From Brachyhypopomus gauderio (lineage: Eukaryota > Chordata > Actinopteri > Gymnotiformes > Hypopomidae), in assembly GCF_052324685.1 (NCBI RefSeq), contig NW_027506919.1, positions 336,314 through 400,313 of the forward strand: 64,000 nt of DNA, written 5' to 3'. The number at the start of each line of letters is the position of its first letter. Position 1 is the first letter of the stretch. The notes below the pieces were generated by a model. It saw nothing but the letters and a program-made list of their open reading frames with translations. It did not search any database and was not told the DNA's origin. Positions 90 to 23,413 of the stretch are shown piece after piece. A program made the translations under genes and the position numbers.

Positions 90-95
90 AAAAAA
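90..95 (-). terminator. Pol III oligo-T terminator after tRNA-Arg
   Basis: On the minus strand six T follow the Arg discriminator base directly. The same T5-T6 run follows nearly all Arg copies of the array, but it is interrupted in the copies at 4746, 7599 and 9501. No equivalent run follows the Thr genes, where only TTTC or TTTCC is seen. Confidence 0.8.
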
Positions 96-185
96 CGACT
101 CTGGTGGGACTCGAACCCACAACCTTTGAATGGCCACACACCTGCGTCTAGAAGTCCAATGCGCTATCCATTGCGCCACAGAGCC
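96..185 (-). tRNA. tRNA-Arg(TCT) with intron
   Basis: Decodes AGA. On the minus strand: acceptor strand GGCTCTG pairing with CAGAGTC, discriminator G, D-arm GCGC/GCGC, anticodon stem TTGGA/TTCAA, anticodon loop with U33 and TCT at 34-36, A37. A 17-nt intron (GACGC...GGCC) sits after position 37, the usual eukaryotic place, and the T-arm has GGTTCGAGTCC. Removing the intron gives 73 nt. This is the consensus form of the array and should be spliced by the tRNA splicing endonuclease. A T6 terminator follows. Confidence 0.96.
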
Positions 186-266
186 CAGTATGTGTTAAAG
201 TTTTGACAGTTGCTCTTCAGCAGGAGGCTAAATGTCATGACCTAAAAACTGCTTACATAAAGGAAA

Positions 267-339
267 GGCACCGCTGGGATTTGAACCCAGGACTTCCTGT
301 TTACTAGACAGGCGCTATGACCAGCTAAGCCACGGCGCC
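267..339 (-). tRNA. tRNA-Thr(AGT)
   Basis: Decodes ACN after A34-to-inosine editing. Minus-strand acceptor strand GGCGCCG pairs with CGGTGCC with one G.U. The D-arm has GCTTAGCTGGTCATAGC, the anticodon stem is CCTGT/ACAGG with loop CTAGTAA, and the T-arm has GGTTCAAATCC. It has 73 nt and no intron. This is the consensus Thr form of the array. There is no oligo-T terminator downstream; the next gene in transcription direction is Arg at 185-96, 81 bp away. Confidence 0.96.
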
Positions 340-412: not shown

Positions 413-502
413 CGACTCTGGTGGGACTTGAACCCACAACCTTTGAATGGCCACACACCTGCATCTAGATGTCCAATGCTCTATCCATTGCGCCACAGAG
501 CC
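413..502 (-). tRNA. tRNA-Arg(TCT), U33A variant
   Basis: Anticodon TCT kept, but loop residue 33 is A instead of the universal U and the D-stem 3' strand is GAGC. Probably not functional. Confidence 0.7.
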
Positions 503-583
503 CAGTATGTGTTAAAGTTTTGACAGTTGCTCTTCAGCATGAGGCTGAATGTCATGACCTAACAACTGCTTACATAATAGAAA

Positions 584-656
584 GGCACCGCTGGGATTTG
601 AACCCAGGACTTCCTGTTTACTAGACAGGCGCTATGACCAGCTAAGCCACGGCGCC
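584..656 (-). tRNA. tRNA-Thr(AGT)
   Basis: Consensus copy. Confidence 0.95.
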
Positions 657-4428: not shown

Positions 4429-4518
4429 AGACTCTGGTGGGACTCGAACCCACAACCTTTGAATGGCCACACACCTGCGTCTAGAAGTCCAATGCGCTAT
4501 CCATTGCGCCACAGAGCC
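4429..4518 (-). tRNA. tRNA-Arg(TCT)
   Basis: Consensus body, discriminator U. Confidence 0.93.
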
Positions 4519-4599
4519 CAGTATGTGTTAAAGTTTTGACAGTTGCTCTTCAGCATGAGGCTGAATGTCATGACCTAACAACTGCTTACATAATAGAAA

Positions 4600-4672
4600 G
4601 GCACCGCTGGGATTTGAACCCAGGACTTCCTGTTTACTAGACAGGCGCTATGACCAGCTAAGCCACGGCGCC
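4600..4672 (-). tRNA. tRNA-Thr(AGT)
   Basis: Consensus copy; first gene of the A-E block that recurs at 7453 and 9355. Confidence 0.95.
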
Positions 4673-4745
4673 ACGCCATGGCTTTTTACTGTGGATTGGT
4701 GTCATTAGTGAGGAGCGATGAATTTTGTTGTTTTCAAAGAATAAA

Positions 4746-4835
4746 CGACTCTGGGGGGACTCGAACCCACAACCTTTGAATGGCCACACACCTGAGTCTA
4801 GAAGTCCAATGCGCTATCCATTTTGCCACAGAGCA
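4746..4835 (-). tRNA. tRNA-Arg(TCT), terminator-poor variant
   Basis: Acceptor base 1 and D-stem altered, and the downstream T run is broken to TTTATT. Confidence 0.68.
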
Positions 4836-4916
4836 CAGTATGTGTTAAAGTTTTGACAGTTGCTCTTCAGCAGGAGGCTAAATGTCATGACCTAATAACT
4901 GCTTACATAAAGGAAA

Positions 4917-4989
4917 GGCACCGCTGGGATTTGAACCCAGGACTTCCTGTTTACTAGACAGGCGCTATGACCAGCTAAGCCACGGAGCC
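4917..4989 (-). tRNA. tRNA-Thr(AGT), GGCTCCG acceptor
   Basis: As at 3966. Confidence 0.86.
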
Positions 4990-7281: not shown

Positions 7282-7371
7282 AGACTCTGGTGGGACTCGA
7301 ACCCACAACCTTTGAATGGCCACACACCTGCGTCTAGAAGTCCAATGCGCTATCCATTGCGCCACAGAGCC
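7282..7371 (-). tRNA. tRNA-Arg(TCT)
   Basis: Consensus body, discriminator U. Confidence 0.93.
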
Positions 7372-7452
7372 CAGTATGTGTTAAAGTTTTGACAGTTGCT
7401 CTTCAGCATGAGGCTGAATGTCATGACCTAACAACTGCTTACATAATAGAAA

Positions 7453-7525
7453 GGCACCGCTGGGATTTGAACCCAGGACTTCCTGTTTACTAGACAGGCG
7501 CTATGACCAGCTAAGCCACGGCGCC
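7453..7525 (-). tRNA. tRNA-Thr(AGT)
   Basis: Consensus copy; start of second A-E block. Confidence 0.95.
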
Positions 7526-7598
7526 ACGCCATGGCTTTTTACTGTGGATTGGTGTCATTAGTGAGGAGCGATGAATTTTGTTGTTTTCAAAGAATAAA

Positions 7599-7688
7599 CG
7601 ACTCTGGGGGGACTCGAACCCACAACCTTTGAATGGCCACACACCTGAGTCTAGAAGTCCAATGCGCTATCCATTTTGCCACAGAGCA
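7599..7688 (-). tRNA. tRNA-Arg(TCT), terminator-poor variant
   Basis: Same diagnostic changes as 4746. Confidence 0.68.
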
Positions 7689-7769
7689 CAGTATGTGTTA
7701 AAGTTTTGACAGTTGCTCTTCAGCAGGAGGCTAAATGTCATGACCTAACAACTGCTTACATAAAGGAAA

Positions 7770-7842
7770 GGCACCGCTGGGATTTGAACCCAGGACTTCC
7801 TGTTTACTAGACAGGCGCTATGACCAGCTAAGCCACGGAGCC
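7770..7842 (-). tRNA. tRNA-Thr(AGT), GGCTCCG acceptor
   Basis: Matches 4917. Confidence 0.86.
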
Positions 7843-9183: not shown

Positions 9184-9273
9184 CGACTCTGGTGGGACTC
9201 GAACACACAACCTTTGAATGGCCACACACCTGCGTCTAGAAGTCTAATGCGCTATCCATTGCGCCACAGAGCC
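9184..9273 (-). tRNA. tRNA-Arg(TCT), TTAGA stem variant
   Basis: Matches 6965 and 11720. Confidence 0.72.
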
Positions 9274-9354
9274 CAGTATGTGTTAAAGTTTTGACAGTTG
9301 CTCTTCAGCATGAGGCTGAATGTCATGACCTAACAACTGCTTACATAATAGAAA

Positions 9355-9427
9355 GGCACCGCTGGGATTTGAACCCAGGACTTCCTGTTTACTAGACAGG
9401 CGCTATGACCAGCTAAGCCACGGCGCC
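9355..9427 (-). tRNA. tRNA-Thr(AGT)
   Basis: Consensus copy; start of third A-E block. Confidence 0.95.
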
Positions 9428-9500
9428 ACGCCATGGCTTTTTACTGTGGATTGGTGTCATTAGTGAGGAGCGATGAATTTTGTTGTTTTCAAAGAATAAA

Positions 9501-9590
9501 CGACTCTGGGGGGACTCGAACCCACAACCTTTGAATGGCCACACACCTGAGTCTAGAAGTCCAATGCGCTATCCATTTTGCCACAGAGCA
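9501..9590 (-). tRNA. tRNA-Arg(TCT), terminator-poor variant
   Basis: Same diagnostic changes as 4746. Confidence 0.68.
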
Positions 9591-9671
9591 CAGTATGTGT
9601 TAAAGTTTTGACAGTTGCTCTTCAGCAGGAGGCTAAATGTCATGACCTAACAACTGCTTACATAAAGGAAA

Positions 9672-9744
9672 GGCACCGCTGGGATTTGAACCCAGGACTT
9701 CCTGTTTACTAGACAGGCGCTATGACCAGCTAAGCCACGGAGCC
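9672..9744 (-). tRNA. tRNA-Thr(AGT), GGCTCCG acceptor
   Basis: Matches 4917. Confidence 0.86.
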
Positions 9745-14367: not shown

Positions 14368-14448
14368 CAGTATGTGTTAAAGTTTTGAGAGTTGCTCTTC
14401 AGCATGAGGCTGAATGTCATGACCTAACAACTGCTTACATAATAGAAA

Positions 14449-14537
14449 GGCACCGCTGGGATTTGAACCCACAACCTTCAAATGGCCACACACCTGCGTC
14501 TAGAAGTCCAATGCGCTATCCATTACGCCACAGAGCC
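14449..14537 (-). pseudogene. Thr/Arg chimeric tRNA
   Basis: Same fusion as at 901 and 2212. Confidence 0.83.
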
Positions 14538-14618
14538 CAGTATCTGTTAAAGTTTTGACAGTTGCTCTTCAGCATGAGGCTGAATGTCATGACCTAACAA
14601 CTGCTTACATAATAGAAA

Positions 14619-14691
14619 GGCACCGCTGGGATTTGAACCCAGGACTTCCTGTTTACTAGACTGGCGCTATGAAAAGCTAAGACACGGCGCC
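14619..14691 (-). tRNA. tRNA-Thr(AGT), decayed D-arm
   Basis: Several D-arm substitutions (plus GAAAAGCTAAGACAC) and one anticodon-stem mismatch. Confidence 0.62.
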
Positions 14692-16609: not shown

Positions 16610-16690
16610 CAGTATGTGTTAAAGTTTTGACAGTTGCTCTTCAGCATGAGGCTGAATGTCATGACCTAACAACTGCTTACATAATAGAAA

Positions 16691-16763
16691 GGCACCGCTG
16701 GGATTTGAACCCAGGACTTCCTGTTTGCTAGACAGGCGCTATGACAAGCTAAGACACGGCACC
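16691..16763 (-). tRNA. tRNA-Thr body with AGC (Ala) anticodon
   Basis: Loop reads CTAGCAA, so the anticodon is AGC (Ala) in a Thr-type body. The D-arm is also altered (plus GACAAGCTAAGACAC) and acceptor 5' is GGTGCCG. Likely a decaying copy; a predictor would call Ala. Confidence 0.75.
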
Positions 16764-22504: not shown

Positions 22505-22553
22505 GGCATAACTGGGATTTGAACCCAAGACTTCCTGTTTACTAGGCAGGTGC
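22505..22553 (-). pseudogene. tRNA-Thr 3' half, array edge
   Basis: Acceptor 3' strand, T-arm and anticodon loop of Thr remain; the 5' half is missing and unique sequence follows. Confidence 0.8.
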
Positions 22554-22612
22554 AACGCTTCATGGTTTGCTGAAAAAAAAAGTTTGCTGTGCTAATAAAA
22601 TTTCATCTTGTG

Positions 22613-23178: not shown

Positions 23179-23321
23179 CTGGTCAAATGGGTGGAAACCG
23201 ATAGTTGGAACTCAACAAGCTCACTCGATGGCACTTGAATTCTCTACCTGACATGCTCCTCCTAATTAAACAGCGATATAGTTGGTGGCATGTGAGGCTT
23301 TTCGGAACTTCAGAAAAGATG

Positions 23322-23413
23322 CGACTCTGGCGGGATTGAAACCCACCAATTTTTGAACGGCCATAAAAATCTGATCAAAGCAGGCTAATGCGATAACCAT
23401 CGCGCCACACCAC
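23322..23413 (-). pseudogene. Isolated decayed tRNA-Arg
   Basis: GACTCTGG, a T-arm-like stretch, and CGCGCCACA at the other end align with the array Arg gene. The anticodon region is scrambled and acceptor ends no longer match. Confidence 0.7.

Follow-up and report, generated by a model that had tools for sequence, protein, structure and literature searches.

The window, a 64,000-nt stretch of the Brachyhypopomus gauderio genome, contains a tandem array of tRNA-Thr(AGT) and tRNA-Arg(TCT) genes in units of about 317 bp. The array probably belongs to a known kind of tDNA array, in which the genes are promoted separately and read-through from Thr into Arg would be a plausible by-product. An obligate dicistronic organization of the Thr-Arg units is unsupported.

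Organization of the Thr-Arg array

The array was delimited by Tandem Repeats Finder rows and Rfam hits; it runs past the left end of the window and so begins upstream of position 1. The features referred to below are as follows.

1–22502, minus strand: tandem Thr-Arg tRNA array, units of about 317 bp
266–339, minus strand: tRNA-Thr(AGT) of the pair 96–339, identical to the array consensus, with A and B boxes matched
186–265, minus strand: Thr-Arg spacer of the pair 96–339, 80 nt, with TTTTT on the minus strand (plus-strand positions 244–248)
96–185, minus strand: tRNA-Arg(TCT) of the pair 96–339, identical to the array consensus
90–95, minus strand: T6 directly after Arg, a canonical Pol III terminator
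413–656, minus strand: next pair along, its spacer free of T4 (Thr 583–656, Arg 413–502)
4429–4989, minus strand: 561-nt Thr-Arg-Thr-Arg run with no T4 between its genes

The 134 tRNA hits that reach the Rfam gathering score all lie on the minus strand; we classed 70 as Thr, 61 as Arg, including two partial hits of 79 nt, and 3 as Arg/Thr chimeras. In minus-strand order, the usual unit consists of tRNA-Thr(AGT), an 80-nt spacer, a tRNA-Arg(TCT) gene of 90 nt and a 73-nt spacer. The Arg gene contains an intron of about 17 nt, with putative bounds taken from the gene length and from vertebrate Arg-TCT genes. Of the 70 Thr genes, 58 are followed by Arg, 3 by a chimera and 9 by another Thr; the first two classes together make up the 61 pairs considered here, and the nine Thr-Thr gaps, which hold Arg remnants or deletions under the Rfam cut-off, were left out of the pair count. 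The spacer from Thr to the following Arg or chimera is 80 nt in 56 of the 61 pairs, 70 nt in three, 81 nt in one and 250 nt in one, so that the 81 nt given for it in the initial annotation has to be corrected to 80 nt for the usual unit. The alternation of Thr(AGT) and Arg(TCT) genes, parallel and less than 1000 nt apart, is that of a tandem tDNA cluster.

The three chimeric genes (900–989, 2211–2300 and 14448–14537) join an Arg(TCT) body to a Thr 3' end, each carries two mispairs in cloverleaf scoring, and they probably arose from recombination in the T arm. A Thr-type gene at 16690–16763 bears an AGC (Ala) anticodon. Outside the array, a decayed Thr-like tRNA remnant (22505–22560) and a decayed and diverged Arg-like one (23321–23412) were recognized by eye and are perhaps the remains of an older pair. 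Among seven reading frames flanking the array, the search against Pfam gave two matches, both under the cut-off and both on one frame.

T-runs downstream of the Thr and Arg genes

TTTT is absent between the Thr discriminator and the next gene in 56 of the 61 pairs (57 when the discriminator is not counted). The claim that nearly every unit lacks TTTT after Thr therefore mostly holds for the array, but not for the pair 96–339 that it cites; the neighbouring pair 413–656 is the kind of unit that had been described. The five pairs with T4 or longer after Thr are 96–339 and those of Thr 5550, 8403, 10305 and 17008. The first four carry TTTTT at spacer positions +18 to +22, and in Thr 17008, which has an insertion, the T4 starts at the discriminator. 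At least T3 is found within the discriminator and the following 40 nt of all 73 Thr and chimera ends, and 72 of the 73 start with TTTC.

Downstream of Arg, a T-run begins at the first base as T6 in 50 of the 61 genes, T5 in 2, T3 in 3 and T1 in 3, and is missing in 3; the 52 genes with T5 or T6 bear out the annotated terminator at once after Arg. Over the first 12 nt downstream of Arg, the longest run of Ts is T6 in 51, T5 in 4, T4 in 3 and T3 in 3 genes. A canonical terminator (T4 or more within 12 nt) thus follows 58 of the 61 Arg genes, as would be expected of the second gene in a dicistronic unit, and the asymmetry between the Thr and the Arg ends is real.

When the array was cut at every T4 between genes, 69 groups were obtained: 47 Thr-Arg, 8 Thr, 5 Arg, 3 Thr-Arg-Arg, 3 Thr-Thr and 3 Thr-Arg-Thr-Arg; a T4 inside the Thr gene 14618–14691 was not used as a cut. 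The middle gene of all three Thr-Arg-Arg groups is a chimera. Near-identical copies of the 561-nt Thr-Arg-Thr-Arg run at 4429–4989 occur at 7282–7842 and 9184–9744. The T-run is broken as TTTATT after the Arg copies 4746–4835, 7599–7688 and 9501–9590, and it is because of this break after their first Arg that the 561-nt runs have no T4 between genes.

Chance, copying and selection in the missing T4

The lack of T4 in one 80-mer is expected by chance. TTTT was missing from 74% of 20000 80-mers taken at random from the remainder of the window and from 58% of 4083 that were T-matched, and shuffles of the consensus spacer lacked it in 71% (dinucleotide) and 59% (plain) of 5000 each. The 56 spacers of 80 nt comprise only 21 distinct sequences. 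Because the units are copies of one ancestor, the missing T4 comes close to one unremarkable observation repeated by amplification. Between 4429 and 11200, block shifts of 2853, 1902 or 4755 bp give 99.8–100% identity in the stretches compared, against about 96–97% for most other unit shifts in the array, and these higher-order copies appear to be a sign of recent block amplification. The T5-bearing spacers show the same copying: those of Thr 5550, 8403 and 10305, which are 2853 and 1902 bp apart, are identical and lie in blocks 99.9–100% identical over the 1500 bp compared. The T5 was therefore counted as having two probable origins, the pair 96–339 being the second.

Selection against T4 in the spacer was considered and rejected as unsupported. 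When 57 units were aligned, the spacer showed 25 minor alleles, one of them a T4-creating substitution; the pair 96–339 and Thr 17008 with its insertion are further cases in which such a change has arisen. Of the 240 possible single changes in the spacer, 6 to 8 would create a T4; no depletion of such changes was visible, at numbers small enough that a weak effect could be missed. A terminator-free spacer kept by selection, as an obligate dicistronic unit would require, was thus not indicated, the lack of T4 being chance-like and T4-creating changes not visibly depleted.

Variation and folding of the Thr-Arg spacer

The allele alignment covers 57 units of the 61 pairs; the three chimera pairs and the pair 96–339 were left out because no Thr directly follows their Arg in the window. 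Raw counts pointed to lower variation in the Thr-Arg spacer, which was partly a CpG effect. With 56 units (one of 487 bp was dropped), 18 of 78 non-CpG sites vary in the Thr-Arg spacer and 29 of 69 in the other spacer (Fisher p 0.02, uncorrected), and the tree-based comparison gave p 0.07. This lower variation is a weak hint, and the sole one, that the transcribed spacer might have a function at the RNA level.

The spacer was also considered as a structured RNA element on account of inverted repeats noticed by eye, and this was rejected since the folds were like those of shuffles. Four spacers (two of them identical) folded no better than their shuffles (z −0.98, −0.02, −0.98 and −0.55), as did the whole dimer of the pair 413–656 (z −0.71). 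No inverted repeats of at least 12 were found in one unit, and a spacer pattern gave no match in viral_contigs.

Promoter boxes and integrity of the genes

Of the 70 Thr genes, 56 match the A box and 67 the B box; among the 61 Arg genes the A box is matched in 56 and the B box in 53. The anticodon is kept in 69 of 70 Thr genes and, as TCT, in 59 of 61 Arg genes, the two partial Arg hits being scored as without A box, B box and anticodon. Most Arg copies thus retain A and B boxes of their own, so that a dimer would not be needed for Arg expression, and these putative boxes speak against a dependence of Arg on the Thr promoter.

A strict test (no mispair, the right anticodon and both boxes) was passed by 33 of the 70 Thr genes and 20 of the 61 Arg genes, leaving at least one flaw in 37 and 41 genes, respectively; the test overstates decay because single mispairs count as flaws. 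With so few flawless copies, a good many of the units may yield no tRNA. When the chimeras are excluded, both genes pass and T4 is absent from the spacer in 10 of the 58 Thr-Arg pairs, and both pass with T4 present in one, the pair 96–339.

Known tDNA clusters and read-through systems

Arrays of this kind are already described in print. According to Bermudez-Santana et al, 2010 (PMC2888827), R-T is among the commonest adjacent tRNA gene pairs in Danio, where nearly all pairs are parallel, and teleosts have clusters of fifty and more. The legend of their Figure 4, in which the species is left unnamed, describes heterogeneous clusters of Arg(TCT) and Thr(AGT or TGT) genes. The same two tRNA families alternate there and in the present array, a likeness in gene arrangement. 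Beyond PMC2888827, no report of such arrays was found among the matches listed (in one case the best 10 of 107). The human 1q23.3 tandem repeat (PMC4041453) is likewise from a vertebrate and has several tRNA genes per unit, but its units are of 7.3 kb with five tRNA genes and CTCF sites, whereas those of the array are of 317 bp with two genes.

Terminator read-through, as described in yeast (PMC4937561) and human (PMC5356446), would be the mechanism of any Thr-Arg dimer. It reaches 50–200 nt at yeast tRNA genes, and terminators 50 nt or more downstream have been suggested for the human genome (PMC4937561). Human Pol III is stated to need no more than four Ts, and its read-through to be common in cells; extended transcripts are quickly processed or degraded (PMC5356446). 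Such transcripts are scarce in these systems, and in the array they are a prediction. Since T4 is missing in most units, read-through is a fair prediction for them, and dimers would be plausible in most units if Thr is transcribed. The predicted read-through into Arg is thus reasonable for units without T4, of which the pair 96–339, with T5 in its spacer, is not one.

Dimeric tRNA precursors are known in S. cerevisiae, where tRNA-Arg and tRNA-Asp share one, and the spacers of yeast dimers are short compared with the 80 nt of the array. The yeast dimers resemble the array in having two tRNA genes in one direction and an intron in one of the two tRNAs; they differ in that the dimeric RNA has been observed, whereas that of the array is a prediction and its second gene has both promoter boxes. 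The yeast precedent invoked in the initial annotation is confirmed by the Ser-Met pre-tRNA of S. pombe (PMC4234475). Judged by titles and abstract beginnings, no vertebrate nuclear tRNA-tRNA dimer was present among the matches listed, in which subscription journals are mostly uncovered, and the main text of a human Pol III nanopore study (PMC12775064) contains none of the terms read-through, dicistronic, polycistronic or terminator.

Explanations for the array

In the reading that we favour, 317-bp Thr(AGT)-Arg(TCT) units would have been amplified by unequal exchange from an ancestral unit that lacked T4 after Thr by happenstance. Most Thr and Arg genes, having internal A and B boxes of their own, could be transcribed singly by Pol III. 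Of the polymerases coming from Thr, some would terminate at the T-rich TTTCTATT or TTTCCTTT sequence just after Thr, and others would run about 170 nt further to the T6 after Arg. RNase Z would then cleave the resulting dimer behind Thr, and RNase P in front of Arg; such a dimer would be a by-product, and Arg would not depend on it. The array, genes, boxes and T-runs are observed, and from them we infer every step of transcription and processing.

True dicistronic units, with a regularly formed Thr-driven dimer as a main source of tRNA-Arg and the missing terminator kept by selection, were also weighed. The absence of T4 from most Thr-Arg spacers against T5-T6 after most Arg genes, the somewhat lower variation of that spacer and the S. 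pombe pre-tRNA Ser-Met (PMC4234475) would agree with such units. Against them are the boxes retained by most Arg copies, a T4 lack that is chance-like, T4-creating changes that are not visibly depleted, spacer folds that do not surpass those of shuffles, a variation difference that is not significant on the tree and the T5 in the spacer of the intact pair 96–339, which together make such units quite improbable. The proposal that the Thr-Arg pairs look dicistronic is thus upheld in part, for their layout of T-runs, and weakened by the Arg genes' own boxes and by a T4 absence expected by chance. If, on the contrary, hardly any dimer arose because termination were efficient at the non-canonical TTTCTATT or TTTCCTTT sites just after Thr, every Thr gene would be expressed as a monocistron. 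The T3 or longer run found at all 73 Thr and chimera ends and the many human tRNA genes without a close T-stretch (only 50–60% have one within 15 bp; PMC11346459) would fit, but three Ts fall short of the four that suffice for human Pol III (PMC5356446), and we regard exclusive monocistronic expression as very unlikely.

The array could also be largely silent, a satellite-like block that is mostly untranscribed or heterochromatic, with copies decaying singly and terminators hardly mattering. The strict-test flaws in over half of both gene families, the three chimeras and the nine Thr-Thr gaps point that way, as does zebrafish, in which repeat-rich tRNA clusters sit in the heterochromatin-rich chromosome 4, and isodecoders from highly repetitive regions are present in eggs and not at later stages, although within its Thr cluster Thr-AGT rises late (PMC11417395). 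The anticodon is nevertheless kept in nearly all Thr and Arg genes and both boxes in most, and the strict test inflates decay by its treatment of single mispairs; a silent array is held to be unlikely.

Implications

If no dimers form, the array would simply join the other amplified tRNA gene clusters, and would serve as a caution that a terminator missing from copied repeats counts as one observation, not sixty. It is doubtful, and rather improbable, that the array represents dozens of natural two-tRNA (locally three- or four-tRNA) Pol III transcripts that couple tRNA-Thr supply to that of the intron-containing tRNA-Arg and in whose processing the 80-nt spacer takes part; were it so, units with a T5 spacer such as 96–339 would be built-in monocistronic controls. 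If dimers do form, the array would offer a natural setting in a vertebrate for studying how Pol III reads through and how tRNAs separated by long spacers are processed, in which units differing by a single T5 would serve as internal controls.
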